DNA from: Hyphomicrobiales bacterium
Lineage (GTDB): Bacteria; Pseudomonadota; Alphaproteobacteria; Rhizobiales; Xanthobacteraceae
Direction of reading: 5' to 3'
Assembly (NCBI GenBank): GCA_017305535.1
Contig: JAFKKN010000005.1
Span: 1-64,000, forward strand
Length of the DNA stretch: 64,000 nucleotides
Shown here: in pieces, positions 35,194-52,474 of the stretch
Numbering within the stretch: the stretch's first letter is position 1
Layout: the number at the start of each line of letters is the position of its first letter
Translations under genes and position numbers: made by a program
The notes under the pieces: generated by a model
Seen by the model: only the letters and a program-made list of their open reading frames with translations
What the model was told of the DNA's origin: nothing
The model's database searches: none

Positions 35194-36015
35194 ATGTCAG
35201 TTTCGATTTCAGAAAAGCGCGCGACGTTCCGGCAACTGCACCAAAGCGGCTGCTTCGTGATCCCCAACCCGTGGGATGTCGGGAGCGCGCGCGCGTTGCA
35301 GTATCTCGGCTACAAGGCTCTGGCCTCGACCAGCGCCGGCTATGCCTGGTCGACGGGGCGGGCCGACAACAAGGTGACGTGCGACGACGTGATTGATCAC
35401 CTCACGCAGCTTTGTGCCGCCGTCGATCTGCCGGTGAATGCCGATTTCGAAGGCGGTTTCGCCGATGCGCCGGAAGGTGTGGCAGCGAATGTGACGCGTG
35501 CGCTTGCGACCGGCGTAGCCGGATTATCCATCGAGGATTCCACCGGCGACAAAGCGAAGCCGCTCTACGATCGTTCGTTGGCGATCGAACGCATTGCAGC
35601 ATCGCGCGCGGCCATCGATGCCAGCGGCACGGACGTGATGCTGGTCGGACGCTGCGAGAGCTTCTTCGTTGGCCAGCCCGACCTCGATCTGGTGCTTGAT
35701 CGTGTCACTGCCTACGCCGACGCTGGTGCGGACTGCCTCTATGCACCGGGTATTCGGACAAAAGAGCAGGTATCCGCCGTGGTGAAGGCGGTGCATCCGA
35801 AGCCGGTCAATCTTCTGATCGGTTGGCCGGGTGGACTGACTGTCGCCGAAGCGACCGACCTCGGTGTGCGACGCATCAGCATCGGCGGCGCGTTGGCGCG
35901 CAGTGCGTGGGGCGCATTCATGCGCAGCGCGCGCGACATTCTCGACAACGGATCGTTCAACTCATTCGCGGAGGGTTATCCCGCCTCTGAACTGAACAAG
36001 ATGTTTGGCGCCTGA
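35194..36015 (+). CDS. Isocitrate lyase/PEP mutase family protein
   Basis: The 273-residue enzyme has the ICL/PEPM barrel motifs: NPWDVGSARALQYLGYKALA at the start, VNADFEGGFADAPEG (Mg-binding Asp region), GLSIEDSTGD and VGRCESFFVGQPD. It likely cleaves or forms a C-C or C-P bond in a 2-oxo-acid such as a 2-methylisocitrate-type substrate. Length and motifs suit the short ICL/PEPM proteins rather than true isocitrate lyase. AGGAAGGCAGGCG precedes the ATG. An intrinsic terminator follows. Confidence 0.87.
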   Translation: MSVSISEKRATFRQLHQSGCFVIPNPWDVGSARALQYLGYKALASTSAGYAWSTGRADNKVTCDDVIDHLTQLCAAVDLPVNADFEGGFADAPEGVAANVTRALATGVAGLSIEDSTGDKAKPLYDRSLAIERIAASRAAIDASGTDVMLVGRCESFFVGQPDLDLVLDRVTAYADAGADCLYAPGIRTKEQVSAVVKAVHPKPVNLLIGWPGGLTVAEATDLGVRRISIGGALARSAWGAFMRSARDILDNGSFNSFAEGYPASELNKMFGA

Positions 36016-37073: not shown

Positions 37074-40000
37074 ATGGGAATCAACCAAGGTCCGATCAGT
37101 CTCGATCAGAAGTACACCCAGGAATCCGGTCACATCTTTCTCACGGGCATTCAGGCGCTGGTCCGGCTGCCGATGGCCCAGATCCGGCGCGACCGCGCGG
37201 CCGGTTTGAACACCGCCGGATTTGTTACTGGCTATCGCGGCTCTCCGCTCGGCGGTTACGATCAGCAGTTGATGGCGGCGCGCAAGCACCTCGAGCAGTA
37301 CAACGTCAAATTTCAGCCCGGCGTGAACGAGGACCTCGCGGCCACCGCGATATGGGGTTCGCAGCAACTCAATCTCTCGCCCGGCGCAAAGCACGACGGC
37401 ATCGTCGGCATCTGGTACGGCAAGGGTCCTGGCGTCGATCGTTGCGGCGACGTCTTTCGTCACGGCAACGCGGCGGGCTCGGCAAAGAACGGCGGCGTGC
37501 TATGCCTTGCGGGCGACGACCACGGCGCGAAATCCTCCACGGTGCCGCATCAGTCCGACCACGCCTTCATCTCGGCGCTGATGCCGTATCTCTATCCGTC
37601 CAGCATTCATGAAATGATCCAGATGGGTCTGCTCGGCATCGCGATGTCGCGCTATTCCGGCTGCTGGGTCGGCATGAAGGTGATCACCGAAACGGTGGAG
37701 ACCACCGCGGAGATCAATCTCGCCGACGAACTGACGCCGTTCGTCATTCCCACCGATTTCGAGATGCCGCCGGGTGGCCTCAACCTGCGCTGGCCCGACG
37801 ACCGCTACGAGCAGGATCGCCGGCTGCAAGACTACAAGGGTTTTGCCGCGATCGCGTTTGCGCGCGCCAACAAGATCAACCGCGTTACCATGGACTCGCC
37901 GAACGCACGCTTCGGTATCATGGCGTCAGGCAAGAGCTACGAGGACGTGCGGCAGGCGCTGCGTGAACTCGGCATCACCGAACAGGTGGCGGCGCGCATA
38001 GGTCTGCGCCTCTACAAGATCGGCATGCCGTGGCCGCTGGAGCCGGAAGGTGTGCGGCAGTTCGCGGTCGGCTTGCAGGAAATCTTCATCGTCGAGGAAC
38101 GCCGCGAGATCGTCGAGAACCAGGTCAAGCAGGAGCTGTTCAACTGGCGCGACGACGTGCGTCCGCGCATCATCGGCAAGATGGACGATCACGACAAGCG
38201 CTTCCTGCCGTTCGCGGAAGAACTCGGCGTCGCCAACATCGCAACCTCGCTTGCGGATCGCCTGCTGGCGATGGAGATCGATCCGGAAATCGCTGCGCTG
38301 ATCCGCGCCAAAGCCGACTGGTTTCACGGCCGCGCGGCTTCGCAGGTGCAGCCGGCGATCCCGATCGCGCGCACGCCGTATTTTTGCTCGGGTTGCCCGC
38401 ACAACACCTCGACCAAGGTGCCGGAAGGCAGCCGCGCGATGGCCGGCATCGGCTGTCACTTCATGTCGTTGTGGATGGACCGCAACACCGAGACATTCAC
38501 GCATATGGGCGGCGAGGGCGTCACCTGGGTCGGCATCGCGCCGTTCACCAACGAGAAGCATGTGTTCGCCAATCTCGGCGATGGCACTTACTTCCACTCG
38601 GGCAGCCTTGCGATCCGGCAGGCGGTCGCCTCGAAAGCGAACATCACTTATAAAATTCTCTACAACGACGCCGTCGCGATGACCGGCGGTCAACGCCATG
38701 ACGGCGATCTCTCGCCACAGCAGATCACCTATCAGCTTCACAGCGAGGGCGTGCGTAACATCTATCTGGTGTCGGAGAATCCCGACGCCTATCCGCCGTC
38801 CAGCCTCGCGCCCGGCGTCAAGACCGCACATCGCGACGATCTCGACACGGTGATGAAGACCCTGCGCGAGACGCCCGGCTGCTCGGCCATCGTCTTCGTG
38901 CAGACCTGCGCCGCCGAAAAGCGCCGCCGCCGCAAGCGCGGCCTGATGGAAGATCCGGCCCGGCGCGTGATGATCAACCCGGCGGTGTGCGAAGGCTGTG
39001 GCGATTGCTCGGTTCAGTCGAACTGTATCTCGGTGGAGCCGCTGGAAACCGAACTCGGCCGCAAGCGCGCCATCAACCAGTCGAGCTGCAACAAGGATTA
39101 TTCCTGCGTCAAAGGTTTCTGTCCGTCGTTCGTCAATATCGATGGCGGCAAGCCGCGCAAGCGCGCCGCGATGGATGTTTCGTCGTTGATGGGCGATCTG
39201 CCGGAGCCAGCGTCGCGTCCGACGCTGGAGAAGCCCTACAACATCGCTGTGGGTGGCGTCGGCGGCACCGGCGTCCTGACCATCGGGGCGCTGCTCGGCA
39301 TGGCCGCGCACATCGAGGGCAAGGCCAGCATGATCCTCGACATGTCCGGCCTCGCGCAGAAGGGCGGCGCGGTGCTGAGCCATGTTCGGCTGTCGCAGAA
39401 CACCGACGACGTGAAGACGTCGAAGATCGTCACGGGTTCCGCCGATCTTCTGATCGCCGCCGACGAGGTGATGGCGATCTCCAAGGAGACGATTTCGCTG
39501 TGCGACTCCAGCCGTACCCACGGCGTGGTCAATACACATCTCATTCCGATCGCCGACTTCATCCACAATCGCGATTTCGATTTCCAGAACCGCAAGGTCG
39601 ATAGCGTGTTGCAAGGCGCGCTGACCAAAGATTCCGCGTTCATGGATTTCACCAAGGTCGCGGAAGGCTTGCTGGGCGACGCCATTGCGACCAACATGAT
39701 GATGATGGGCTATGCCTATCAGCAGGGGCGATTGCCGCTGTCTGCGGAATCGCTGTTGCAGGCCATCGAGATCAACGGCGTGTCGATCAAGATGAACACG
39801 CAGGCGTTCCAGTTGGGGCGTCTGGCGGCGGCCGATCCGGGGCGGCTGGCGCAGATGATCAAGGGCAAGGATGAGGCGACGGCGCCGAAATCGCTCGATG
39901 CGATGTCGCTCGACGAAATTATCGCGCATCGCAGCAAATTGCTGACCGATTACCAGAATGCCGGTCTAGCGAACGCCTATCGCAAGGTGGTGGATCAGGT

Positions 40001-40568
40001 GAAGGCGGTGGCCAAGCAGCACGGCTTCGGCGAGGAATTGCCGCGCGCGGTGGCGATCAATTACGCCAAGCTGCTTGCCTACAAGGACGAGTACGAGGTG
40101 GCGCGGCTCTACACCGATGGCCGTTTCCAGAAGCTGCTGCGCGAGCAGTTCGAAGGCGATTACAAGATCAGCTTCAATCTCGCGCCGCCGGTCCTGTCGT
40201 CTGAACTCGATACGCAGGGGCGGCCGCTGAAGCGCGAGTTCAGCGCGCGAATCCTGCCGCTGTTCCGGTTGCTGGCCAAGATGAAGGGACTGCGCGGCAC
40301 ACCGTTCGACGTTTTCGGTTACAACAAGGACCGCAAGATGGAGCGCGAACTGATCGCCGGTTATGAGCGCGACATCGAAACGGTGCTGCGGCTGGTCTCG
40401 CCGGCCAACGTCGATATCGCCGTCGAACTGCTGTCGCTGCCGGATCGCATTCGCGGTTACGGTCCGGTGAAGGAGAAGGCGGTGAAGGACGCCAAGGCGC
40501 GCTATGAACAGTTGGCCAAGGATCTGGTCAACCCGCCTCCTGTGACGCGGCAGATGGCGGCGGAATAG
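37074..40568 (+). CDS. Fused indolepyruvate:ferredoxin oxidoreductase family protein
   Basis: The 1164-residue protein fuses the alpha, beta and gamma-like parts of 2-oxoacid:ferredoxin oxidoreductases. The N-terminal part has GYRGSPLGGYDQQLMAARKH, a pyrimidine-binding-like domain. The TPP half has FCSGCPHNTSTKVPEGSR (Cys438/Cys441) and GDGTYFHSG (Gly502-Asp-Gly). A ferredoxin-like Cys cluster begins at CEGCGDC (Cys639, 642, 645). The gamma domain carries VGGVGGTGVLTIGALLGMAA. Such enzymes decarboxylate arylpyruvates or related 2-oxo acids to acyl-CoA, passing electrons to ferredoxin. It heads a + strand cluster of acyl-CoA enzymes, so it probably makes their substrate; the precise 2-oxo acid is unknown. 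Confidence 0.9.
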   Translation: MGINQGPISLDQKYTQESGHIFLTGIQALVRLPMAQIRRDRAAGLNTAGFVTGYRGSPLGGYDQQLMAARKHLEQYNVKFQPGVNEDLAATAIWGSQQLNLSPGAKHDGIVGIWYGKGPGVDRCGDVFRHGNAAGSAKNGGVLCLAGDDHGAKSSTVPHQSDHAFISALMPYLYPSSIHEMIQMGLLGIAMSRYSGCWVGMKVITETVETTAEINLADELTPFVIPTDFEMPPGGLNLRWPDDRYEQDRRLQDYKGFAAIAFARANKINRVTMDSPNARFGIMASGKSYEDVRQALRELGITEQVAARIGLRLYKIGMPWPLEPEGVRQFAVGLQEIFIVEERREIVENQVKQELFNWRDDVRPRIIGKMDDHDKRFLPFAEELGVANIATSLADRLLAMEIDPEIAALIRAKADWFHGRAASQVQPAIPIARTPYFCSGCPHNTSTKVPEGSRAMAGIGCHFMSLWMDRNTETFTHMGGEGVTWVGIAPFTNEKHVFANLGDGTYFHSGSLAIRQAVASKANITYKILYNDAVAMTGGQRHDGDLSPQQITYQLHSEGVRNIYLVSENPDAYPPSSLAPGVKTAHRDDLDTVMKTLRETPGCSAIVFVQTCAAEKRRRRKRGLMEDPARRVMINPAVCEGCGDCSVQSNCISVEPLETELGRKRAINQSSCNKDYSCVKGFCPSFVNIDGGKPRKRAAMDVSSLMGDLPEPASRPTLEKPYNIAVGGVGGTGVLTIGALLGMAAHIEGKASMILDMSGLAQKGGAVLSHVRLSQNTDDVKTSKIVTGSADLLIAADEVMAISKETISLCDSSRTHGVVNTHLIPIADFIHNRDFDFQNRKVDSVLQGALTKDSAFMDFTKVAEGLLGDAIATNMMMMGYAYQQGRLPLSAESLLQAIEINGVSIKMNTQAFQLGRLAAADPGRLAQMIKGKDEATAPKSLDAMSLDEIIAHRSKLLTDYQNAGLANAYRKVVDQVKAVAKQHGFGEELPRAVAINYAKLLAYKDEYEVARLYTDGRFQKLLREQFEGDYKISFNLAPPVLSSELDTQGRPLKREFSARILPLFRLLAKMKGLRGTPFDVFGYNKDRKMERELIAGYERDIETVLRLVSPANVDIAVELLSLPDRIRGYGPVKEKAVKDAKARYEQLAKDLVNPPPVTRQMAAE

Positions 40569-40581
40569 CAAGGTTCACGCC

Positions 40582-40682
40582 GCCATCCTGAGGTGGCGAT
40601 GCAATTGCCATCGCCCTCGAAGGATGACACCCCTCGCAGCTATCTTTCGAAGCTCGCTTCTGCCCGCACCTCAGGGTGACGG
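40582..40682. repeat. Intergenic palindromic element between the oxidoreductase and thiolase genes
   Basis: CCTGAGGTG (40587-40595) is inverted at CACCTCAGG (40667-40675), and GGCGATG-CAATTGC-CATCGCC (40595-40615) forms an internal hairpin. The sequence CATCCTGAGGTG resembles the REP-like palindromes common in this bacterial family. It is different from the 125-bp repeat family and has no coding capacity. Confidence 0.6.
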
Positions 40683-40782
40683 CATTCAATCAATCTCGCG
40701 GCGCGGAATATTTCCGCGCTTGCCAAGGCTGCGCAGACGGGCCAGAAAATCTGCTGGGGACAAACGCCAGCGGAGACACCTT

Positions 40783-41940
40783 TTGACGATCAAGGGCCAA
40801 GCCTACATCGCCGGGATTTACGAGCATCCCACCCGGCACGCACCCGATAAATCCACCGCGCAATTGCACGCCGAGGTCGCCAAGGGTGCGATCGAGGATG
40901 CGGGGCTGACGATCGACGACGTCGACGGCTATTTCTGCGCGGGCGACGCGCCCGGCGGCGCCTGGCCGATGGTCGATTATCTCGGTTTCAATACCAAGAA
41001 ATTGCGCCACATCGATTCCACCGAGACCGGCGGCTGTTCCTACATCATTCATATCGGCCATGCCGCCGAGGCCATCGCTGCGGGCAAGTGCTCGATCGCG
41101 CTGGTGACGCTGGCCGGTAAGCCCCGCACCAGCGTGATGCCGCCACGCGCGGCCGGCGCGGAAGTGGATTTCGAGACGGCTTACGGCGCCACCACCCACA
41201 ACGCCTACGGCATGTGTGCCATGCGCCATATGCACGACTATGGCACCACCAGCGAACAGCTTGCGTGGATCAAGGTCGCAGCCTCGCATCACGCGCAATA
41301 CAATCCGCACGCGATGCTGAAGGACGTCGTCACCGTCGAGGACGTCGTCAACTCACCGATGATCTCCGATCCGCTGCATCGCATGGATTGTTGCGTCGTC
41401 ACCGATGGCGGCGGCGCGCTGATCGTTACCACGCCGGAAATCGCCAAGAGCCTGAAGAAGCCGCTGGTGCGCCTGATCGGCCATGGCGAGGCGATGAAGG
41501 GACCGCGCGGCGGCAAGGACCTCGACCTGACCTATTCCGCCGGCGTGTGGTCCGGCCCGCGCGCGTTCGAGGAAGCGGGCGTGCGGCCTTCGGATATCAA
41601 GTATGCGTCGATCTACGACAGCTTCACCATCACTGTGCTGATGCAGCTCGAGGACCTCGGTTTTTGCAAGAAGGGCGAGGGCGGCAAGTTCGTCTCCGAC
41701 GGCAACCTGATTTCCGGCGTCGGCAAGTTGCCTTTCAACACCGATGGCGGCGGACTGTGCAGCAATCATCCCGTCAATCGTGGCGGCATGACCAAGATCC
41801 TCGAAGCGGTGCGACAGTTGCGCGGTGAAGCGCATCCCAAGGTGCAGGTGCCCAATTGTGACCTCGCGCTGGTGCATGGCACCGGCGGTCTTCTCGGCGT
41901 GCGTCACGCCGCCTCAACTGCCGTTCTGGAGCGCGTGTGA
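40783..41940 (+). CDS. SCP2-type thiolase / acetyl-CoA acetyltransferase family protein (TTG start)
   Basis: The 385-residue protein is a thiolase of the SCP2/lipid-transfer type. Cys85 in STETGGCSYIIH is at the place of the nucleophilic Cys of classical thiolases. CSNHPVNRGGM carries the active-site His. HGTGGLLGVRH replaces the usual C-terminal Cys-Gly motif, as in SCP2-type members. I start at TTG because no ATG fits: AGCGGAGAC lies 8 bases upstream and the next residues match family starts. A longer ATG start at 40624 would cross a repeat. The following DUF35 gene is its usual partner. It could cleave 3-oxoacyl-CoA or act as an aldolase. Confidence 0.87.
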   Translation: MTIKGQAYIAGIYEHPTRHAPDKSTAQLHAEVAKGAIEDAGLTIDDVDGYFCAGDAPGGAWPMVDYLGFNTKKLRHIDSTETGGCSYIIHIGHAAEAIAAGKCSIALVTLAGKPRTSVMPPRAAGAEVDFETAYGATTHNAYGMCAMRHMHDYGTTSEQLAWIKVAASHHAQYNPHAMLKDVVTVEDVVNSPMISDPLHRMDCCVVTDGGGALIVTTPEIAKSLKKPLVRLIGHGEAMKGPRGGKDLDLTYSAGVWSGPRAFEEAGVRPSDIKYASIYDSFTITVLMQLEDLGFCKKGEGGKFVSDGNLISGVGKLPFNTDGGGLCSNHPVNRGGMTKILEAVRQLRGEAHPKVQVPNCDLALVHGTGGLLGVRHAASTAVLERV

Positions 41941-42341
41941 TGAGCGAAGCGAAAACCCAAGAGAAGAAGTACCCCGCGCCGCAGGGCAATCCGGAAACGC
42001 AAGCGTTCTGGGACGCCGCCAAGCAGGGCAAGTTCATGATCAAGCGCTGCACCGCGTGCGGCGAGGCGCATTACTTTCCGCGTTCGATCTGTCCGTTCTG
42101 CTTCTCCGACAAGACGGTGTGGGAAGAAAGCGCGGGCGAGGGCGAGATCTACACGTTCAGCCTGATGCGGAAATCACCGACCGGTCCTTACGCCATTGGC
42201 TATGTCAAGCTGAAGGAAGGTCCGGCGGTGCAGACCAATTTCGTTGATTGCGATCTTGGCGCGTTGAAGATCGGACAGAAGGTCAAGGTGGTGTTCAAGC
42301 CGACCGACGGTGCACCGCTGCCATTTTTTACGACGGCTTAA
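41940..42341 (+). CDS. Zn-ribbon/OB-fold (DUF35) protein, thiolase partner
   Basis: The 133-residue protein has a rubredoxin-like zinc ribbon CTACGEAHYFPRSICPFC (two CxxC-type pairs) and an OB-fold half with YTFSLMRKSPTGPYAIGYVK. DUF35 proteins bind thiolase-like enzymes and can supply acyl-CoA-binding surfaces, as in aldolase complexes of steroid side-chain degradation. The ATG overlaps the thiolase stop (TGATG), so the two are likely to be made in equal amounts. Confidence 0.92.
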   Translation: MSEAKTQEKKYPAPQGNPETQAFWDAAKQGKFMIKRCTACGEAHYFPRSICPFCFSDKTVWEESAGEGEIYTFSLMRKSPTGPYAIGYVKLKEGPAVQTNFVDCDLGALKIGQKVKVVFKPTDGAPLPFFTTA

Positions 42342-42350
42342 CGACTTACC

Positions 42351-42468
42351 TCTCCCCGCGTGCGGGGAGAGGTCGACCGGCGAAACGCAGCGAATACGGT
42401 CGGGTGAGGGGGCGTATCCGTTGGAGCGGCCCCTCACCCCAACCCTCTCCCCGCAGGCGGGGAGAGGG
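42351..42468. repeat. Pair of CTCTCCCCGC hairpins between DUF35 and MaoC genes
   Basis: CTCTCCCCGC-GT-GCGGGGAGAG (42351-42372) and CCCTCTCCCCGC-AG-GCGGGGAGAGGG (42443-42468) are perfect hairpins with 2-base centres. The region between includes GGTGAGGGG and CCCCTCACC, another inverted pair. This is a REP-like element lying inside the cluster. There is no T-tract, so read-through to maoC is possible. Confidence 0.75.
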
Positions 42469-42498
42469 AGCGCGGAAAATCCTGGAGGAACGACACAC

Positions 42499-43362
42499 AT
42501 GGCGCTCAGTTACGACCAACTCATGGCGCTCAAGAGCACCGGCCAGAAATACAGCTACACCGATCGCGAGGTGATGCTTTACGCCTACGGCATCGGTCTC
42601 GGCGCCGATCCGATGGACGAGAAGGAATTGGCGTTCGTCAACGAAGCCTGTTTCACCGAGCGTCCGCTCAAGGTGGTGCCGACGTTTGCGTCGGTCGCGG
42701 CATGGGGCTCCGGCCCCGGCGACATGCAGCTCAACCGCCTGATGGTGGTGGACGGCGAGCGTGACATCACCTTCCACACGCCGATGCCGGTGGCTGCCAA
42801 CATCACGGCGGACTCCAGCGTGCTCGGCGTATTCGACAAGGGCAAGGACAAGGGACTGGTGATCCGTCATCAGACCGTGCTGAAGAACGAGAAGGGCGAG
42901 GCACTGGCGACCTTGGTGGCATCGCGTTTCGCGCGCGGCGACGGCGGCATCGGCGGTCCTTCATCGGCGCAGCCGGAATCGCACGAAGTGCCGAAGCGTG
43001 CGCCGGATCAGACCGTCGACATTACGACCCGGCCGGATCAGGCGCTGATTTATCGGCTCTGCGGCGACCGCAATCCGCTGCACAGCGATCCGGAGTTTGC
43101 CAAGCGCGCCGGCTTCCCGCGTCCGATCCTGCACGGCATGTGCACCTACGGCATTACTTGCCGCGGCGTGTTGCAGACCTATGCCGATTACGATCCGTCG
43201 GCGTTCCGCCGTCATGCAGTGCGTTTCTCGTCGCCGGTATTTCCGGGCGAGACCGTGACGATGGATCTGTGGAAGGACGGCAACGTGATCTCGTTCGAGG
43301 CCAAGGTGAAGTCGCGCGGCGTCACCGTGATCAAGAATGGCCGCACGGAATTGGCGTCATAA
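42499..43362 (+). CDS. MaoC-like dehydratase / enoyl-CoA hydratase (two-hotdog type)
   Basis: The 287-residue protein resembles the double-hotdog 2-enoyl-CoA hydratase domain of peroxisomal multifunctional enzyme type 2. The catalytic pair sits in the hydratase-2 motif: Asp190 (GDRNPLHSDPEFA) and His195. The N-terminal half includes YAYGIGLGADPMDEKELAFV, a family mark. It hydrates trans-2-enoyl-CoA to (3R)-hydroxyacyl-CoA. TGGAGGAAC precedes the ATG. With the next SDR it would complete two beta-oxidation steps. Confidence 0.92.
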   Translation: MALSYDQLMALKSTGQKYSYTDREVMLYAYGIGLGADPMDEKELAFVNEACFTERPLKVVPTFASVAAWGSGPGDMQLNRLMVVDGERDITFHTPMPVAANITADSSVLGVFDKGKDKGLVIRHQTVLKNEKGEALATLVASRFARGDGGIGGPSSAQPESHEVPKRAPDQTVDITTRPDQALIYRLCGDRNPLHSDPEFAKRAGFPRPILHGMCTYGITCRGVLQTYADYDPSAFRRHAVRFSSPVFPGETVTMDLWKDGNVISFEAKVKSRGVTVIKNGRTELAS

Positions 43363-43372
43363 ACACAGATGC

Positions 43373-43499
43373 CGTCATGGCCGGGCATAGCCGTTCGAAG
43401 AACGACGTCGCTTCGCTCGTCTATGTCCCGGCCATCCACGTCTTGGATGTTGATGTGCCGAAGAAGGCGTGGATGCCCGGAACAGGTCCGGGCATGACG
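43373..43499. repeat. Palindromic intergenic repeat, full copy 3
   Basis: Begins CGTCATGGCCGGGCATAGCC and ends GTCCGGGCATGACG. It contains CGTCGCTTCGCTCG and the inner arms CATCCACGTCTT / AAGGCGTGGATG (one change from the perfect arm), with its own distinct loop. It lies between the MaoC and SDR genes of the catabolic cluster. Confidence 0.85.
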
Positions 43500-43530
43500 C
43501 CCCGAGGGTTGCTGCGCTACGGAGGGACAT

Positions 43531-44403
43531 ATGGGATTGCTTGACGGAAAAGTGGCGCTGATCACCGGTGCGGGCGGTGGACTCGGCGAGGCTTACGTAA
43601 AGCTGTTCGCGCGTGAGGGCGCGGCGGTGGTCGTCAACGATCTCGGCGGGCCGCGTGACGGCAGCGGCTCGGACACCTCGATGGCGCAGAAGGTCGTCGA
43701 TGCGATCAAGGCGGAAGGCGGCCGTGCCGTCGCCAACGGCGCCGACATCTCCACCATGGCCGGCGGCCAATCGGTGTTCGACGACGCCATCAAACATTTC
43801 GGCCGCGCCGATATCCTCGTCAACAATGCCGGCATCCTGCTCGACCGCAGCTTCGTCAAGATGAGCGAGGCCGATTGGGACAAGTGCCTCAAGGTGCATC
43901 TCAAGGGGACGTTCTGCGTCACCACGCCGGTGTTCCGCTGGATGAAGGACAATGGCGGCGGCGTCATCGTCAATACCTCGTCCACATCGGGCCTGATCGG
44001 CAATTTCGGCCAGAGCAATTACGGCGCGGCGAAGGGCGGCATCTGGGGCCTTTCCAACGTCCTCGCGATCGAGGGCCGCAAGTCCAATATTCGCATCTGG
44101 ACGCTGGCGCCCGGCGCGCTGACGCGGATGACCGCCGACCTGCAACGCTATATCGACAATCCGGGCGCGGCGCTGGGGCCGGATGGCATCGCGCCGGCCG
44201 TGCTATACATGGTCAGCGATCTGTCCGGCGATCAGACCGGCAAGGTGCTCGGCGTCTCCGGCCCACGCGGCGTTCGCGAGATGAAGATGATGGAAATGGA
44301 AGGCTGGAAGCCGCCGCATGACGGCTGGAAGGCCGAGGACATCGTCACCCACGCCAAGGAGATCTTCTTCTCCGACGATACGCTGGGCGCACGACGGTTT
44401 TGA
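43531..44403 (+). CDS. SDR family oxidoreductase, MFE-2-like 3-hydroxyacyl-CoA dehydrogenase
   Basis: The 290-residue SDR has TGAGGGLGEAYVKLFAREGA (cofactor), NDLGGPRDGSGSDTSMAQKV (a region typical of the MFE-2 hydroxyacyl-CoA dehydrogenase group), NNAGILLDRSFVKMSEADWD and the catalytic SNYGAAKGG, with Tyr164 and Lys168. It likely oxidises (3R)-hydroxyacyl-CoA with NAD. GGAGGGACAT precedes the ATG. It is next to a hydratase of the same peroxisomal-like system. Confidence 0.9.
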   Translation: MGLLDGKVALITGAGGGLGEAYVKLFAREGAAVVVNDLGGPRDGSGSDTSMAQKVVDAIKAEGGRAVANGADISTMAGGQSVFDDAIKHFGRADILVNNAGILLDRSFVKMSEADWDKCLKVHLKGTFCVTTPVFRWMKDNGGGVIVNTSSTSGLIGNFGQSNYGAAKGGIWGLSNVLAIEGRKSNIRIWTLAPGALTRMTADLQRYIDNPGAALGPDGIAPAVLYMVSDLSGDQTGKVLGVSGPRGVREMKMMEMEGWKPPHDGWKAEDIVTHAKEIFFSDDTLGARRF

Positions 44404-44413
44404 AAGAACGACG

Positions 44414-45367
44414 ATGAAACTCACCCACGAAGCCAGCGGCACCTTTGCGATCGCGCCGACGCCGTTTCATGACGACGGCCGCATTGATGAGAGTTCGATC
44501 GATCGGCTGGTCGATTTCTACACCGAGGTCGGCTGCAACGGCGTCACCGTGCTTGGCATTCTCGGCGAAGCGCCGAAGATGGACAGCGCCGAAGCCGCGG
44601 CGGTGGCGACGCGTTTCGTCAAGCGCGCGAAGGCGTTGCAAACGGTGGTCGGCGTCTCGGCGCCCGGTTTTGCCGCGATGCGCGGACTGGCTCGCGCCTC
44701 GATGGACGCGGGCGCGGCGGCGGTGATGATCGCACCGACGCCGAACCTGCGCACCGATGATCAGATTGTCACGTACTTCAAGCAGGCGGTGGAGGCGATC
44801 GGCGACGACATTCCATGGGTGTTGCAGGATTACCCGTTGACGCTGAGCGTGGTGATGACGCCTTCGGTGATCCGCAGGATCGTGATGGACAATCCGTCCT
44901 GCGTGATGCTCAAGCATGAGGACTGGCCGGGACTGGAGAAGATCACCGCGCTGCGCGATTTCCAGAAGGACGGCTCGCTGCGGCCACTGTCGATCCTCAC
45001 CGGTAACGGCGGCACCTTCCTCGATTTCGAGATGGAGCGCGGCGCCGACGGCGCGATGACCGGCTACGCGTTTCCCGAATTGCTGATCGACGTGGTGCGA
45101 TTGTCGAAGGACGGCAAGCGCGATGCTGCGCACGATCTGTTCGATGCGCATCTGCCGTTGATCCGTTATGAGCAGCAGCCGGGCGTCGGCCTTGCGGTGC
45201 GCAAATATGTGCTCAACAAGCGTGGCATCATCGCCTCCGCCGCGCAACGCAAGCCGGGTTCGAGCCTCAGCGCCAAGGCGCGTGAGGAGGTCGATTATCT
45301 GTTGTCGCGCGTGGCGCGTGTCGACAAGCGCGCGCTGACCGCGCCACACAGCCACGCCGCTGGTTAG
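44414..45367 (+). CDS. Dihydrodipicolinate synthase family lyase
   Basis: The 317-residue TIM barrel belongs to the DapA/NAL family. The Schiff-base Lys is Lys167 (VMLKHEDWPG) and the conserved Tyr is Tyr140 (VLQDYPLTLS). The usual GTTGE stretch is instead GVTVLGILGEAPKMDS, so a true DapA role is doubtful. It may run an aldol or retro-aldol or decarboxylative step on a 2-oxo acid in the cluster. The start MKLTHEASGT follows the SDR stop by ten bases with AAAGAACGACG upstream. Confidence 0.88.
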   Translation: MKLTHEASGTFAIAPTPFHDDGRIDESSIDRLVDFYTEVGCNGVTVLGILGEAPKMDSAEAAAVATRFVKRAKALQTVVGVSAPGFAAMRGLARASMDAGAAAVMIAPTPNLRTDDQIVTYFKQAVEAIGDDIPWVLQDYPLTLSVVMTPSVIRRIVMDNPSCVMLKHEDWPGLEKITALRDFQKDGSLRPLSILTGNGGTFLDFEMERGADGAMTGYAFPELLIDVVRLSKDGKRDAAHDLFDAHLPLIRYEQQPGVGLAVRKYVLNKRGIIASAAQRKPGSSLSAKAREEVDYLLSRVARVDKRALTAPHSHAAG

Positions 45368-45377
45368 GGAGATATTG

Positions 45378-46172
45378 ATGTCGGTTCAATCGGCCGCCGC
45401 GCGGCCTGCTTCGACGATCCTGCTGTTGCGCGCAGGTCAAAGCGCCATCGAAGTGTTCATGATGGTGCGTCACTATCAGATCGAGTTTGCCTCCGGCGCG
45501 CTGGTGTTTCCAGGCGGCAGCGTCGATCCCGGCGACCGCGACATCGTCGAGGACCCCGTGCTTTGCGGTAATCGCGATAATCTCGATGCGGCTGCATTGC
45601 AATTCCGCGTTGCCGCGATCCGTGAAACTTTTGAGGAGAGTGGCATCCTGCTGGCGCGCCCGCGCGGCTCGCAGGATTTGATCGCGGCGTCGCGCGCGGC
45701 CGAGATCGCCGCCGCACAGCGCGTTGCGCTGTGTGAGGGAAAGACGTCGTTTCGCGAAATTCTCGCGGCGAACGAATTGATCCCGGCGGTCGATCATCTC
45801 GCGCATTACGCGCACTGGATCACCCCTGAGGGACAGCCCAAGCGTTTCGATACGCATTTCTTTCTGGCGAAGGCGCCTCCGGAGCAGGTCGGCGCGCATG
45901 ACGGTCGTGAGTCCACCGACTCGATCTGGGTTTCGCCGCAGGAGGCATTGGAGGGCGGCGAGAGCGGCCGCTTCAAGTTGCCGTTTCCGACCACGCGCAA
46001 TCTGATCAAGCTCGGCAAGCAGCAAAGTGTCGAGGCAGCGCTCGACGACGCACGGCGCTCGCGCGTGGTGACCGTGATGCCGGTGATCACCAAGGACGAC
46101 GGCAAACGACGCCTGCGCATTCCGGCCGACGCGGGTTATGACGGTGAGTTGTTCGACGTTCCGGCGCATTGA
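45378..46172 (+). CDS. NUDIX hydrolase (NUDT7/19-like)
   Basis: The 264-residue protein has the NUDIX core RETFEESG at residues 82-89 with the early FPGGSVDPGDRD motif. The Gly and first Glu of the classical box are not in phase, suggesting an insertion as in CoA-pyrophosphatase-like or NUDT19-type members. It may hydrolyse CoA or acyl-CoA diphosphate bonds, which would fit the acyl-CoA setting. TTAGGGAGATATTG precedes the ATG, 10 bases after the lyase stop. Confidence 0.85.
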   Translation: MSVQSAAARPASTILLLRAGQSAIEVFMMVRHYQIEFASGALVFPGGSVDPGDRDIVEDPVLCGNRDNLDAAALQFRVAAIRETFEESGILLARPRGSQDLIAASRAAEIAAAQRVALCEGKTSFREILAANELIPAVDHLAHYAHWITPEGQPKRFDTHFFLAKAPPEQVGAHDGRESTDSIWVSPQEALEGGESGRFKLPFPTTRNLIKLGKQQSVEAALDDARRSRVVTVMPVITKDDGKRRLRIPADAGYDGELFDVPAH

Positions 46173-46583: not shown

Positions 46584-48785
46584 ATGCGGCATCGATCGAA
46601 TTCCATTGACGATCTATCACGGCAGTTCGATCGAGGGTCGCATTGGCGTGGTTTGCGTGGCCATCTCCTGCATGGCATCGCCGTGGTGGCGTTGGCGGCA
46701 TCGGCAGCGTCGATGGGAAGCGGCGGTGCGAACGCCAAGGACAAGGATGCGAAGGGATCGCCGGCGCACATCAAGGCCGTGACGTCCGGAGTTGATGGCA
46801 AGGCGATTGAAGCCAACGCAAAGACCACGAAGGATTGGCTCAGCTACGGTCTCGACTACGCCGAGACGCGCTTCAGCAAGCTCGACAAGATCAACGACGG
46901 TAACGTCAAGAATCTCGGCCTGATGTGGACCTACAATCTGGAATCCATTCGCGGCGTCGAAGCGACGCCGCTTGTCGTGGACGGCATCATGTATGTCACC
47001 GCGTCGTGGAGCGTGGTGCATGCGATCGATGTACGCACCGGCAAGCGGATATGGTCATACGATCCCGGCGTCGATCGCTCGAAGGGCTATCGCGGCTGCT
47101 GCGACGTCGTCAATCGCGGCGTCGCGTTGTACAAGGGCAAGGTCTATGTCGGTGCCTATGACGGTCGCCTCGTTGCGATCGATGCCGCGACCGGAACGAA
47201 GGTCTGGGAAAAAGACACCATCATCGATCATTCCTTCTCCTACACCATCACCGGCGCGCCGCGCGTGGTGAAGGGTAAGGTAATCATCGGCAATGGCGGC
47301 GCCGAATACGGCGTGCGCGGCTACGTGACGGCCTACGATGCCGAGACCGGCGCGCAGGCGTGGCGCTGGTTCACCGTGCCGGGCGATCCGTCCAAGCCGT
47401 TCGAGGACGAGTCGATGGCGAAGGCCGCCAAGACCTGGGACCCGGCCGGCAAGTATTGGGAGGGCGGTGGCGGCGGCACGCCATGGGACACCATGGCTTA
47501 TGATCCGCAATTGAACCTGCTCTACATCGGCACCGGCAACGGCTCGCCGTGGAATCGCAAGTTGCGCAGTCCCGCCGGCGGCGACAACCTCTATCTGGCC
47601 TCGATCGTCGCGCTCAATCCCGATACCGGCAAATACGTCTGGCACTATCAGGAGACGCCCGGCGACAACTGGGACTACACGTCGACGCAGCCGATGATCC
47701 TTGCGGACCTGACCATCGCGGGAAAGCCGCGCAAGGTCATTCTGCATGCGCCGAAGAACGGCTTCTTCTTCGTTATCGACCGCACCAACGGCAAGTTTAT
47801 CTCGGCGAAGAACTTCGTCGATGTGAACTGGGCGACGGGCTACGACAAGGACGGCCGCCCGATCGAGGTGGCTGAAGCGCGCGGCGACAAGCCGTTCGAT
47901 GCGATCCCCGGTCCGTTCGGTGCGCACAACTGGCATCCGATGTCGTTCAATCCGAAGACAGGGCTGGTCTATCTGCCGGCGCAGCACGTGCCGCTGAATC
48001 TGACGGCGGAGCCGACTTTCAAGCATAATGAGGTGTCACCCGGTAAGGCGATGTCCGGCATCGGTTGGAATCTCGGCTTCGCGGTCAACGCGACGCCGCC
48101 GAAGAGTCAGCCGTTCGGACGATTGGTCGCGTGGGACCCGGTCAAGCAGCAACAGGTCTGGAAGCAGGACTACGTCTCGCCGTGGAACGGCGGTACGCTG
48201 ACCACGGCCGGTAACCTCGTCTTCCAGGGTACCGCCGACGGCCGCTTCGTCGCCTACAACGCCAGGACCGGTGAAAAACTGTGGGAGCAATCGACCGGCA
48301 CCGGCGTCGTTGCCGGCCCCGCGACCTACATGGTCGATGGCGTGCAGTACGTTTCCATCGCGGTCGGATGGGGTGGTGTATTCGGCGAAACGCAGCGGGC
48401 CACAGACAAGGAAGCGGCGGGGACGGTGTTCACCTTCGCCATCGGCGGCAAGGCCAAGCCGCCGGAGTTCACCAAGCTGCAACTCGCGGGCCTGGTGGAG
48501 GGCGTCAAGTACGATCCGAAGGACGTCGGCCCCGGCACGCTGCTCTATGTCACCAACTGCGCGTTCTGTCATGGCGTGCCGGGAGTGGACAAAGGCGGGA
48601 ACATCAAGAACCTCGGCTATTCCGCGCCGGAGACCATCTCGAACCTGAAGGACATCGTCTTCAAGGGACCGTTCATGGACAGGGGCATGCCGGACTTCAC
48701 CGGCAAGATCAGCGAGGATGATGTTCGGCAGATCCAGGCCTTCATTCAGGGCACGGCCGACGCCATTCGTCCGAAGACGAAGTAA
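46584..48785 (+). CDS. Type II quinohemoprotein alcohol dehydrogenase (PQQ and heme c)
   Basis: The 733-residue protein has a signal peptide (hydrophobic part HGIAVVALAASAASMGSGG, cleaved near ANA), an eight-bladed PQQ propeller and a C-terminal cytochrome c domain (Cys659-Ala-Phe-Cys-His663). The adjacent Cys172-Cys173 (YRGCCDVVNRG) is the vicinal disulphide near PQQ. The catalytic region is GDNWDYTSTQ: Asp364 is present but the residue two places on is Thr366, so the lanthanide-specific Asp of XoxF-type enzymes is missing and calcium is expected. The layout and segments such as GRLVAWDPVKQQQVWK match quinohemoprotein ethanol dehydrogenases. It oxidises alcohols in the periplasm. No PQQ biosynthesis gene is nearby. 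Confidence 0.95.
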   Translation: MRHRSNSIDDLSRQFDRGSHWRGLRGHLLHGIAVVALAASAASMGSGGANAKDKDAKGSPAHIKAVTSGVDGKAIEANAKTTKDWLSYGLDYAETRFSKLDKINDGNVKNLGLMWTYNLESIRGVEATPLVVDGIMYVTASWSVVHAIDVRTGKRIWSYDPGVDRSKGYRGCCDVVNRGVALYKGKVYVGAYDGRLVAIDAATGTKVWEKDTIIDHSFSYTITGAPRVVKGKVIIGNGGAEYGVRGYVTAYDAETGAQAWRWFTVPGDPSKPFEDESMAKAAKTWDPAGKYWEGGGGGTPWDTMAYDPQLNLLYIGTGNGSPWNRKLRSPAGGDNLYLASIVALNPDTGKYVWHYQETPGDNWDYTSTQPMILADLTIAGKPRKVILHAPKNGFFFVIDRTNGKFISAKNFVDVNWATGYDKDGRPIEVAEARGDKPFDAIPGPFGAHNWHPMSFNPKTGLVYLPAQHVPLNLTAEPTFKHNEVSPGKAMSGIGWNLGFAVNATPPKSQPFGRLVAWDPVKQQQVWKQDYVSPWNGGTLTTAGNLVFQGTADGRFVAYNARTGEKLWEQSTGTGVVAGPATYMVDGVQYVSIAVGWGGVFGETQRATDKEAAGTVFTFAIGGKAKPPEFTKLQLAGLVEGVKYDPKDVGPGTLLYVTNCAFCHGVPGVDKGGNIKNLGYSAPETISNLKDIVFKGPFMDRGMPDFTGKISEDDVRQIQAFIQGTADAIRPKTK

Positions 48786-48960: not shown

Positions 48961-50748
48961 GTGATTGTGCGTTTCCCACTCTTGGCGACTGATCTGACGA
49001 GCATGGGCACTCTCATCTGGATTTCCATCATCATCGCGCTTCTTGTCGGCGCGGCGCTTGGCTATTTCGCGGCGATCACCGGCCGCAAGGGGCGTGCCGC
49101 GGCCGCCGACCGGGCCGGCGAGATTGCTCGCCGCTCGCTGGCGGAGCGGCGCTTTGCCGAGGCGGAGGAGAGCTACCGCAAACTGTTCGACAGCTCGATC
49201 GATGGCATCTATGTCACCACGCCGGAGGGCCGGCTGCTGAATGCCAATCCGGCATTGTCCCGGATGATGGGATACGACACCCCGCGGGAATTGATCGAGG
49301 GCGTCACCGATGTTGCCAACGCCATCTATCTCGATCCAACGGTGCGCGCGAAATATCAGGAGCGGATGGCGCGTGACGGCATGGTGCGCGAGTTCGAATA
49401 TCAGGTGAAGCAGCGCGACGGCACCGTGCTCTGGCTCTCCGACAGCGCGACGACGGTAAGGGACGACGCGGGCAACGTTATCCGCTATGAGGGTGTGGTC
49501 CGCGATATCACCAATCAGAAACGGGCGGAGGATGAGGTCGCCGAAGGCCGTCGACGTTTGCAGGAGGTGATCGACACCGTGCCGGCGGTGATCAACGTCA
49601 AGGACATGCAGATGCGCTATGTCCTGATGAATCGCTACATGGCCAGCATTTTCAACATCGAACCGGAAGATGCCATCGGCCACACCACTACCGACATCAT
49701 GTCGCGCTACGGCGCGCAGAAGACAGACGAGAATGACCGCCGCTTGCTCGATGCCGGTAAGGAACTCGGCTTCTACGAGGAGGAGTATATCGACTCTTCC
49801 GGGACCATGCGTCAGTGGCTGGTCAACAAACTGCCGCTGCGCGGATCGGACGGCAAGATCAAACAGATCGTCACCGTCGCGCTGGATATTGGCGAGCGCA
49901 AGCGCAACGAGCAGGAAATGCGCAAGGCGAAAGACGCCGCCGAGGCAGCCTTGCAGCATCTTCGGGAGACGCAGAACTCGCTGATAGAAGCAGAGAAACT
50001 TGCCGCGCTGGGACGTCTGGTGGCCGGTGTTGCGCACGAGGTCAACAATCCCGTCGGCATCAGCCTTACGGTCGCCTCGTCGCTGGAGCGCAAAGTCGCA
50101 GTGTTCGCGGAGGAGGTGGCGCGCGGCGAATTGCGGCGCTCGAGCCTCAACGAATTCGTCGAGACCAGTCGCAGCGCGGCATCGCAACTGGTCGGTAATC
50201 TCAACCGTGCCGCCGAACTCATCCAGTCATTCAAGCAGGTCGCCGCGGATCGCAGCTATTCCGACCAGCGTACCTTCAATCTCGCCGATCTGACCGATCA
50301 GGTGGTGATGAGCCTGCGTCCCGGCATCCGCAAGCAGAACCTGACGCTGAATGTCGAGTGCGAGCCGGGCCTGATCATGAACAGCTACCCCGGTCCTTAC
50401 GGCCAAGTGCTGACCAATCTGTTTCTGAATTCGGTGGCGCATGCGTTCCCTGGCGGCGCCGCCGGCGAGGTGAACATCAAGGTACGGGCATCTGGCGCCG
50501 ATCAGGTCGAGGTGCTGTATTCCGACGACGGCTGCGGCATGACGCCGGAAATTCGACGGCGCGCGTTCGATCCGTTCTTCACCACGCGACGTGACGAAGG
50601 CGGCACCGGACTGGGACTGCATATCGTCTACAGCATCGTCACCAATCGCCTGGGGGGGCAAATCCACCTGGAGTCGGACCCCGGCAAGGGGACCCGCGTA
50701 CAGATGATCTTGCCGCGTAACGCGCCCAACGAATTCGCGGCGTCATAG
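48961..50748 (+). CDS. PAS-domain sensor histidine kinase (HPK4-type, orphan)
   Basis: The 595-residue kinase has one N-terminal membrane segment (MGTLIWISIIIALLVGAALG), two PAS/PAC domains at about residues 75-195 and 200-320 (YRKLFDSSIDGIYVTTPEGR opens the first), a dimerisation/phosphoacceptor domain with His359 in VAHEVNNP, and an HATPase_c domain with N-box NLFLNSVAHAF and DDGCGMTPE plus GGTGLGLHIV. The RAAELIQSFKQVAADR stretch is HPK4-like. The start could be GTG at the given position or the ATG at 49003. No response regulator is adjacent. It follows the quinoprotein dehydrogenase and may control it; that is a guess. Confidence 0.9.
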   Translation: MIVRFPLLATDLTSMGTLIWISIIIALLVGAALGYFAAITGRKGRAAAADRAGEIARRSLAERRFAEAEESYRKLFDSSIDGIYVTTPEGRLLNANPALSRMMGYDTPRELIEGVTDVANAIYLDPTVRAKYQERMARDGMVREFEYQVKQRDGTVLWLSDSATTVRDDAGNVIRYEGVVRDITNQKRAEDEVAEGRRRLQEVIDTVPAVINVKDMQMRYVLMNRYMASIFNIEPEDAIGHTTTDIMSRYGAQKTDENDRRLLDAGKELGFYEEEYIDSSGTMRQWLVNKLPLRGSDGKIKQIVTVALDIGERKRNEQEMRKAKDAAEAALQHLRETQNSLIEAEKLAALGRLVAGVAHEVNNPVGISLTVASSLERKVAVFAEEVARGELRRSSLNEFVETSRSAASQLVGNLNRAAELIQSFKQVAADRSYSDQRTFNLADLTDQVVMSLRPGIRKQNLTLNVECEPGLIMNSYPGPYGQVLTNLFLNSVAHAFPGGAAGEVNIKVRASGADQVEVLYSDDGCGMTPEIRRRAFDPFFTTRRDEGGTGLGLHIVYSIVTNRLGGQIHLESDPGKGTRVQMILPRNAPNEFAAS

Positions 50749-52397: not shown

Positions 52398-52474
52398 GCG
52401 CTCGTAGCTCAGCTGGATAGAGCATCGGATTTCGATTCCGAGGGTCGGGAGTTCGAATCTCTCCGAGCGCGCCA
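52398..52474 (+). tRNA. tRNA-Arg (anticodon UCG)
   Basis: The 77-base gene folds as a cloverleaf. Acceptor GCGCTCG pairs with CGAGCGC, followed by discriminator G and an encoded CCA. The D arm includes AGCTCAGCTGGATAGAGC, the anticodon stem is TCGGA/TCCGA around loop TTTCGAT (anticodon TCG, for CGA codons), and the T arm is GGGAGTTCGAATCTCTCC. It stands alone, with no neighbouring tRNA, integrase or direct repeat seen. Confidence 0.97.

Follow-up and report, generated by a model that had tools for sequence, protein, structure and literature searches.

A conserved gene cluster of Bradyrhizobium and relatives that may join ferredoxin-linked 2-oxo acid decarboxylation to hydration and retro-aldol cleavage

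The nearest described system that we found for the locus analyzed here is the estrogen-degradation (edc) cluster of Novosphingobium (Caenibius) tardaugens and Sphingomonas sp. KC8. As far as the published accounts describe it, the IOR-family enzyme EdcC turns a ring-cleavage 2-oxo acid into its CoA ester, and the cluster also encodes a chsH2-like hydratase, a lipid-transfer protein and MaoC hydratases (PMC7793797, PMC12507874). Two further groups of enzymes provide references for the active sites. In the Sal paper, the catalytic base of Sal and Ltp2 is the Tyr of a YDxx motif, and a Gly at the nucleophile position excludes thiolysis. In L-2-keto-3-deoxyarabinonate (L-KDA) dehydratase, Gln143 and Glu173 have been linked to dehydration without aldol cleavage, and Glu200 is the base for the C5 proton.

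Our literature searches found no paper combining "indolepyruvate ferredoxin oxidoreductase" with DUF35 and thiolase, and none giving a function for the present cluster. Of the terms lipid-transfer protein, DUF35, indolepyruvate and MaoC, any three occurred together in just three papers, all of them about estrogen degradation. The sequence-only reading of the locus had known of no described pathway with this exact set of genes. The combination of IOR, MaoC and lipid-transfer genes has a partial precedent in edc as published.

Gene set and conservation of the cluster

We analyzed a 64,000-nucleotide stretch of DNA from a Hyphomicrobiales bacterium (the window), which contains the following features:

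35194..36015, + strand: PEP-mutase/isocitrate-lyase superfamily protein, optional upstream neighbour (PF13714)
37074..40568, + strand: fused IOR-family protein of 1164 aa, ATG start (NF009589/NF009588, PF01558, PF02775, PF20169)
40783..41940, + strand: thiolase-fold SCP2-type protein, predicted retro-aldolase, TTG start (NF006010)
41937..42341, + strand: DUF35 partner with zinc ribbon and OB fold (PF12172, PF01796)
42350..42466, no strand: REP-like palindrome pair in the DUF35–MaoC spacer, outside the pathway (palindrome search)
42499..43362, + strand: MaoC protein of the MFE-2 hydratase-2 type, predicted to hydrate enoyl-CoA to 3-hydroxyacyl-CoA (PF22622, PF01575)
43531..44403, + strand: MFE-2-like SDR, accessory (PF00106)
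44414..45367, + strand: DHDPS-family protein, predicted Schiff-base dehydratase with Lys167, Gln138 and Glu169 (PF00701)
45375..46172, + strand: NUDIX hydrolase adjoining the DHDPS-family gene (PF00293; PDB 3qsj)

The seven cluster genes lie on one strand in the order first read from the sequence, and their families were backed by Pfam or NCBIfam, the NUDIX and MaoC proteins scoring below every NCBIfam cut-off and the NUDIX protein having a Pfam match only. The close spacing described earlier was also recovered: the DUF35 start overlaps the thiolase-like stop by 4 bases, and the DHDPS-family and NUDIX genes start 10 and 7 bases after the preceding stops. The PF13714 protein stands beside the cluster in part of the relatives' loci, and its link to the pathway is uncertain. 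The cluster is flanked by a PF03458 transporter and a PAS histidine kinase, often syntenic in relatives too. An Rfam scan of the window gave one tRNA, at 52398, as its sole match.

The gene order is shared with other genomes of the genus and family; Bradyrhizobium, Rhodopseudomonas, Afipia, Tardiphaga and related genera all have it. Among the DHDPS-family loci of named genomes, which are the best 80 matches and skewed toward close relatives, 76 of 80 had at least one further cluster gene with the order unchanged, and 59 of 80 had all or part of the IOR within the stretch fetched. All measurable neighbouring pairs of cluster genes were co-stranded in 91 loci (five contigs counted twice). Gene-order comparison thus bears out a single conserved cluster. 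A MaoC orthologue was found in 41 of 149 family genomes; all 41 also had an IOR orthologue, 35 of them with both in one stretch, and in three genomes without a thiolase-like gene at that place (G014, G459 and G501), IOR and MaoC were at most 220 bp apart. This co-occurrence and closeness would be expected if the hydratase took the IOR product directly as its substrate.

The association is looser at its edges. Six of 50 genomes had IOR but no other cluster gene. The cluster-type DHDPS-family gene was solitary in 3 of 50 and missing from three; IOR lay at another place in five g27 genomes and about 5 kb from MaoC in two g344 genomes. Several relatives had no SDR gene in the cluster. Spacer lengths differed among relatives, and an estimated 83 to 5238 bp separated IOR from the thiolase-like gene, so that one shared transcript is not required. 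The thiolase-like/DUF35 pair was found without IOR in 38 other loci (within the stretch fetched), where only DUF35 was constant; these were fetched from 49 listed matches of 58–76% identity, of which 35 were in other families of the class (27 fetched) and 14 in the same family (11 fetched). Among the latter, G458, G487 and G517 are from genera in which the cluster occurs as well. Independent scattering, named beforehand as a refuting observation, was thus seen in part elsewhere but not inside the clade, where the order is kept.

These patterns also bear on a reading in which IOR, thiolase-like/DUF35, MaoC/SDR and DHDPS-family/NUDIX are separate units in a stable chromosomal region. The syntenic flanking transporter and kinase, the units found alone, the thiolase-like pair with no constant partner except DUF35 in the 38 other loci, and the spacers (commonly 100 to 400 bp, with an IOR–thiolase-like gap of up to 5 kb) all agree with it. 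However, no strand change occurred among the measured pairs, IOR and MaoC are close in the three genomes lacking the thiolase-like gene, and the PQQ dehydrogenase and other neighbours varied among the named loci around a constant core order. We consider mere synteny quite unlikely. The cluster is real and conserved, and we see in it an uncharacterised version of a route whose general type is known.

Repeats within the cluster, should they act as transcription stops, had been named beforehand as another refuting observation. They exist: perfect palindromes lie at both 42350 and 42445, and their pattern has 14 sites in the genome against none for the reversed pattern; the other two repeat places were inspected as sequence only. 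A role as terminators was rejected: inspection of the sequence found no run of T after the palindromes, a terminator scan gave 9 sites against 9.1 expected, and the spacer lengths vary. One of the nine, a weak + strand site at 42308–42320, falls within the DUF35 gene at its 3' end and may act as a transcription stop.

Active-site residues of the cluster proteins

The IOR scored 1594 bits against NF009589 (cut-off 816), with NF009588 likewise at about 1590 bits, and is built of alpha, Fe-S and gamma/POR parts with DUF6537. Its GDG (502–504) with N531, and Cys 639/642/645/651/672/678/683, are invariant in 60 cluster IORs (57 distinct). With the thiamine-diphosphate and Fe-S motifs intact, assignment to the IOR type holds, and we predict that the enzyme converts a 2-oxo acid to acyl-CoA and CO2. 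In B. japonicum, bll3410/bll3411 respond to IAA but are annotated as separate subunit genes; the IOR-family gene blr7589, which may be the cluster IOR, is listed in a microoxia table of B. diazoefficiens.

The MaoC and SDR proteins likewise fit their first assignments. The best PDB matches of MaoC were MFE-2 hydratase 1s9c and enoyl-CoA hydratase 2 7mku, and CGDRNPLHSD is invariant in 86 of 86 rows (81 distinct); it fits GDxNPLHxD, which we take to be the hydratase motif of MFE-2 hydratase 2. With PF22622, this places the protein in the hydratase-2 type. The SDR matched 2et6 and 1gz6 best, consistent with an MFE-2-like enzyme, and its Tyr164 and Lys168 are invariant in 82 sequences (77 distinct).

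The thiolase-like protein exceeded the NF006010 cut-off (727 against 462 bits), but its residues, placed by alignment to 4u4e, 9myr (Sal), 6ok1 (Ltp2) and 7yvy, speak against thiolysis. The nucleophile position holds Gly84 and no Cys, and HDCF is replaced by YDSF, with Tyr278 for His. Gly84, Tyr278, Asp279, Phe281 and His329 are invariant in all 117 orthologues examined (110 distinct); 79 of these are cluster rows (72 distinct), and the remaining 38 come from other loci. Ser280 is Asn in one of the 38 and otherwise invariant; Cys85, next to Gly84, is replaced by Ser in a single cluster row and in 29 of the 38. The protein thus has the Sal/Ltp2-type YDxx Tyr, nucleophile-position Gly and adjacent DUF35 gene; Sal Cys304 and Ltp2 Tyr344, the second catalytic residue, are not kept, Ser280 and His329 standing at those places. 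A plain thiolase was rejected on Gly84 and Tyr278, and the thiolytic last step first assumed is not supported. From its residues, the protein is predicted to be a 3-hydroxyacyl-CoA retro-aldolase rather than a thiolase.

The DUF35 partner was identified correctly at the outset: PF12172 and PF01796 are present beside the thiolase-like gene, four zinc-ribbon Cys are invariant in 83 sequences (75 distinct), and an estimated overlap of the two genes was found in 82 of 82 measured pairs. DUF35 pairing is also seen with true thiolases (BbsAB, archaeal acetoacetyl-CoA thiolase) and is not decisive for an aldolase.

Beta-oxidation of the MFE-2/SCPx type has to be weighed against these residues. There the IOR would supply a branched or aryl, amino-acid-derived acyl-CoA, an acyl-CoA dehydrogenase encoded elsewhere would turn this into enoyl-CoA, MaoC and SDR would carry it on to 3-oxoacyl-CoA, and the SCP2-type protein would act on that as a thiolase, as in the route first read from the sequence. 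The nearest PDB matches of MaoC and SDR are MFE-2 enzymes, the true thiolases BbsAB and archaeal acetoacetyl-CoA thiolase have DUF35-type partners, the BbsA model gives a weak match to the DUF35 protein (24.6 bits against a cut-off of 250) and His329 of the thiolase GHP motif is retained. Against this stand the nucleophile Cys missing in 117 of 117 orthologues with Tyr in place of the HDCF His, the absence of the SDR from the cluster in 11 of 41 genomes retaining MaoC, and a scan of ten proteins between 34438 and 48785 in which no acyl-CoA dehydrogenase was found. We regard beta-oxidation as quite improbable.

The DHDPS-family protein matched PDB 3dz1 at 559 bits over residues 1–304, nearly its full length, followed by the L-KDA dehydratases 7c0c and 3fkk. 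We take Rhodopseudomonas palustris to be the source of 3dz1; a literature search for papers naming 3DZ1 together with R. palustris found none. The Schiff-base Lys (Lys167) is kept, and Gln138 and Glu169 align with Gln143 and Glu173 of L-KDA dehydratase. GTTGE is GILGE and the aldolase Tyr is Gln138, both original features being present in a same-genome control (L182); two same-genome DHDPS-family controls have the Tyr and lack an equivalent of Glu169. Asn198 and Gly199 replace Glu199 and Glu200, and the reaction should therefore differ from that of L-KDA dehydratase. The ordinary DHDPS-type lyase first suggested does not fit this dehydratase-like site, and a DapA-type enzyme or ordinary aldolase is disfavoured by GILGE and Gln138; judged by these residues, the protein is predicted to be a Schiff-base dehydratase of a 4-hydroxy-2-oxo acid. 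A NahE-like aldolase, which would either condense pyruvate with an aldehyde to supply the IOR or split pyruvate off an intermediate, shares the superfamily and the Schiff-base Lys but is very unlikely, given the Gln for Tyr, the altered GTTGE, the Gln and Glu of a non-aldol-cleaving dehydratase, and a net reaction that, with a terminal aldolase, would be pyruvate oxidation only.

Among distant DHDPS-family relatives (L048–L058), L049, L050 and L051 have a common operon and L053 shares the SDR; the rest had no clear common gene context. The 70%-identical L050 lies in an operon that, by Pfam (examined for L050 only), encodes an IlvD/EDD dehydratase, a solute-binding protein, a permease, a MalK-type ABC transporter ATPase, Gfo/Idh, GntR-FCD and SDR proteins, a context that fits a 2-keto-3-deoxy acid substrate for this type of protein. 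The NUDIX protein matched NUDIX hydrolase 3qsj (E 4.8e-17), its gene lies within an estimated 30 bp of the DHDPS-family gene in 73 of 87 pairs, and it may act on CoA derivatives.

A possible route

Our preferred reading, to which we give a tentative probability of about 0.42, is that the enzymes first decarboxylate a 2-oxo acid oxidatively to its CoA thioester, with ferredoxin as the partner, and then break this thioester down by adding water and cleaving it in a retro-aldol step. The DHDPS-family protein would convert a 4-hydroxy-2-oxo acid to a 2-oxo-3-enoate and water, with Lys167 forming the Schiff base and Glu169 acting as the C3 base. From this and CoA, the IOR would reduce ferredoxin and directly make 2-enoyl-CoA and CO2, which would make both a CoA ligase and an acyl-CoA dehydrogenase unnecessary. 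MaoC would add water to give 3-hydroxyacyl-CoA, and the thiolase-fold/DUF35 pair, with Tyr278 as the base, would cleave this to an aldehyde or ketone plus either acetyl-CoA or propionyl-CoA; a dispensable SDR would act on a hydroxyacyl or carbonyl side product. We infer the steps, substrate class and products from sequence; the support consists of the genes present and their arrangement, the active-site motifs of IOR, MaoC and SDR, the absent thiolase Cys and the dehydratase-type residues, all with their conservation. In the earlier idea of an IOR feeding beta-oxidation, the IOR, MaoC, SDR and DUF35 assignments stand, but thiolysis and the ordinary DHDPS-type lyase are not supported.

Some points count against the route. 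Direct decarboxylation of a 4-hydroxy-2-oxo acid gives 3-hydroxyacyl-CoA, and dehydration followed by rehydration looks redundant unless a centre is inverted or the substrate differs. An SDR next to a hydratase usually means 3-oxoacyl-CoA and a thiolase. The second catalytic residues of the aldolase differ, and single cluster genes are also found alone. It is doubtful that the full scheme applies, with the dehydratase and IOR making enoyl-CoA free of ligase and acyl-CoA dehydrogenase, an aldolase of a third type (Tyr-His, set against Tyr-Cys or Tyr-Tyr) yielding acetyl-CoA and a carbonyl, and the whole a core Bradyrhizobium-like trait masked by wrong names.

The cluster is kept in a much-studied soil and root-nodule group, Bradyrhizobium and relatives. 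The family names of two of its proteins are at odds with their active sites and have likely been propagated to many genomes, and the 3dz1 structure and the orthologues in tractable laboratory bacteria make the prediction directly testable.

Comparison with described systems

Like edc as published, the locus joins an IOR, here likened to EdcC by its published description, to MaoC and lipid-transfer-protein-type genes, and EdcC provides an earlier example of CoA-ester formation from an unsaturated 2-oxo acid by an enzyme of the IOR family. The published edc cluster differs in its P450, extradiol (ring-cleaving) dioxygenase, acyl-CoA dehydrogenases and TonB receptor, none of which turned up when ten proteins between 34438 and 48785 were scanned; "dihydrodipicolinate" has no match in the main text of the edc paper. 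Close to the DHDPS-family protein itself stands 3dz1, deposited as "dihydrodipicolinate synthase". With L-KDA dehydratase (DHDPS/NAL family), this protein shares the Schiff-base Lys, the Gln for the aldolase Tyr, the Glu at Lys+2 and the AMTG..FP motif; it differs in its 26% identity over 283 columns, the loss of Glu199/Glu200 and its adjoining CoA-ester enzymes.

Shy-Sal (bile acids, Comamonas testosteroni) and ChsH-Ltp2 (cholesterol) have the same MaoC, DUF35 and thiolase-fold protein with Tyr for the HDCF His and Gly for the nucleophile. MaoC and DUF35 are separate genes here and one protein in Shy, and YDSF with His329 contrasts with the YDCY, or YDHF plus Tyr344, of Sal and Ltp2. Unlike both systems, the present cluster has a predicted IOR feed, and steroid genes were not seen in it.

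Gene order in the window and in relatives

The cluster comprises seven genes, beginning with a fused gene of the indolepyruvate:ferredoxin oxidoreductase (IOR) family, and lies among the following features of the window:

35194-36015: PEP-mutase/isocitrate-lyase superfamily gene, 5' of the IOR gene
37074-46172, + strand: fused IOR-family, thiolase-like (SCP2-type), DUF35, MaoC hydratase, SDR, DHDPS-family and NUDIX genes
42350-42466: two perfect REP-like palindromes, CTCTCCCCGCNNGCGGGGAGAG
46584-48785: PQQ-dependent methanol/ethanol-type alcohol dehydrogenase gene with a C-terminal cytochrome c domain
48961-50748: PAS histidine kinase gene

The tight spacings described in the sequence-only reading were borne out: the thiolase-like and DUF35 genes overlap by 4 bases, and 10 and 7 bases separate the DHDPS-family gene from the SDR gene before it and the NUDIX gene after it. 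Although the reading frame of the thiolase-like gene is open from 40624, its best family model matches only from residue 54, a TTG at 40783, and relatives align from this codon onward.

The same seven-gene order was seen again, with losses, in genomes of the same genus and family (loci L034-L047). Using the DHDPS-family protein as query, we took the best 80 of 583 relatives in named genomes, a choice biased to close ones; these came chiefly from Bradyrhizobium, and the remainder included Rhodopseudomonas, Afipia and Tardiphaga. Among these best 80 of 583, the DHDPS-family gene was accompanied by at least one other cluster gene at 76 loci and stood without any at L134, L138, L139 and L140, while a whole or partial IOR gene lay within the examined stretch at 59. 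Every measurable neighbour pair was on the same strand across 91 loci (five contigs being counted twice). By distances extrapolated from alignments, the thiolase-like and DUF35 genes overlapped in 82 of 82 pairs and the DHDPS-family and NUDIX genes were at most 30 bp apart in 73 of 87, while the distance from IOR to the thiolase-like gene varied from 83 to 5238 bp (n = 67).

Some flanking features recur. The PEP-mutase/isocitrate-lyase gene has the same position in the window's genus, Afipia and some Bradyrhizobium, and L134 retains it together with the DHDPS-family gene, the intervening genes being all absent. The alcohol dehydrogenase gene, between the cluster and the histidine kinase gene, is found at this spot in some relatives only, and a PF01497 periplasmic-binding-protein-like gene follows NUDIX in a few Afipia-like loci (L122 12480-13403; homologues in L041, L045 and L123). 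The genome (4.7 Mb) contains the palindrome pattern at 14 sites and the reversed pattern at none. In a record titled Frankia sp. RB7 (L117), this alphaproteobacterial cluster is present with unchanged gene order and 68-93% identity, and the label or assembly is therefore probably wrong.

Presence and absence across family genomes

Five genes (IOR, thiolase-like, MaoC, SDR and the cluster-type DHDPS-family gene) were scored among the top-ranked candidates in each of 149 family genomes, with orthologues separated from paralogues by identity or score. At least one of the five was present in 50 genomes. All five occurred in one stretch in 19 of the 50; SDR alone was missing in seven, the cluster-type DHDPS-family gene in three (g342), and the set was reduced to IOR, MaoC and DHDPS family in three and to these plus SDR in two (g344). 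The set was split in seven genomes, five g27 genomes with the IOR gene far off or on another contig and two genomes from the window's own genus in which a contig end divides it. IOR stood by itself in six genomes and the DHDPS-family gene in three. Where SDR was missing, the spacing from MaoC to the DHDPS-family gene was too small to hold it.

IOR was present in all 41 MaoC-bearing genomes, in one stretch in 35 of them, making IOR and MaoC the firmest link. The DHDPS-family (38/41), thiolase-like (36/41) and SDR (30/41) genes are less constant. The thiolase-like/DUF35 pair was also found at 38 other loci with no IOR gene in the examined stretch, 27 in other families of the class and 11 in the same family.

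Five small genomes of genus g20 (G026, G474, G495, G513 and G529; 3.4-4.1 Mb) carry the IOR orthologue at 79-80% identity with the other four scored genes not found at the thresholds used, and in them IOR may serve a separate purpose. G544, also of g20, carries the complete set of five.

Enzyme motifs and the predicted route

The thiamine-diphosphate and Fe-S motifs of IOR are invariant in 60 rows (57 distinct), and the genome holds two more IOR copies at 51% and 48% identity. The closest PDB matches of MaoC and SDR are the MFE-2 hydratase and dehydrogenase, and their motifs are kept in 86 (81 distinct) and 82 rows (77 distinct), respectively.

In alignments with solved relatives, the thiolase-like protein carries Gly where thiolases have their nucleophile, and YDSF in place of HDCF. 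Gly84, Tyr278, Asp279, Phe281, Cys326 and His329 are invariant across 79 cluster rows (72 distinct) plus a further 38 orthologues, and Cys85 is variable in the same rows. According to the paper on Sal, Gly at the nucleophile position excludes thiolysis, and the DUF35-partnered retro-aldolases Sal (bile acids; 9MYR) and Ltp2 (cholesterol; 6OK1) use the YDxx Tyr as their catalytic base. The window's protein shares both residues and is predicted to work as Sal and Ltp2 do. The partner residue differs, however, with Ser280 in the window and His329 where Ltp2 has Tyr344, and we therefore do not claim membership in either. DUF35 pairing alone is not decisive, being shared by thiolases such as 7PXP and 6ESQ. 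The thiolase side of the comparison came from PDB sequences and the Sal paper; four paralogues (L185-L188) likewise have Gly and Tyr at the two places and were thus unusable as true-thiolase controls.

In a profile search, the closest solved relative of the DHDPS-family protein was 3dz1, followed by L-2-keto-3-deoxyarabinonate (L-KDA) dehydratases at 94 bits, with other DHDPS-family entries at or below 63 bits. The protein has Lys167, Gln138 where aldolases have Tyr, and Glu169 at Lys+2. In L-KDA dehydratase, a review reports, Gln143 replaces the Tyr, Glu173, which is not conserved among other DHDPS/NAL enzymes, is the C3 base, and no cleavage takes place. Gln and Glu are common to two relatives from other genomes (L183, L184) and 7c0c, while in two DHDPS-family proteins of the window's genome, taken as controls, the Tyr is present and the Lys+2 Glu is not. 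One difference is Gly199 in place of the C5 base Glu200, an equivalent of which would presumably not be needed for a dehydration ending at a 2-oxo-3-enoate.

A relative of about 70% identity lies in a different operon:

L050 1980-11576: second-type DHDPS-family protein operon with IlvD/EDD dehydratase, solute-binding protein, permease, MalK-type ATPase (sugar-type ABC transporter), Gfo/Idh, GntR-FCD and SDR (Pfam on L050)

This operon, with homologues in L049 and in part L051, possibly represents an uncharacterised sugar-acid pathway. Its gene content is consistent with a substrate of the 2-keto-3-deoxy acid type but does not distinguish dehydration from cleavage.

The constant tie of the hydratase to IOR would be best explained by an IOR product that is already unsaturated, by analogy with EdcC, the IOR-family enzyme of the estrogen-degradation (edc) cluster. 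From mutants and metabolites, EdcC has been proposed (PMC7793797 and PMC12507874) to act on an unsaturated 2-oxo acid derived from ring cleavage and to yield a CoA ester. The predicted DHDPS-family dehydratase could provide such a 2-oxo acid to IOR, and the predicted aldolase would then cleave the hydrated product. The weak point of the route is that, with a simple 4-hydroxy-2-oxo acid as substrate, water would be removed and then added again, which is wasteful.

Comparison with described systems

A literature search for the gene set gave no other description among the matches listed, most subscription papers being outside its coverage. PMC7793797 and PMC12507874 describe the edc cluster as joining IOR with chsH2-like hydratase, lipid-transfer protein and MaoC genes, and we therefore place the window's cluster among the variants of an already described kind of route. 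Its DHDPS-family gene, its clade and the absence of ring-opening genes from the scanned proteins set it apart from edc.
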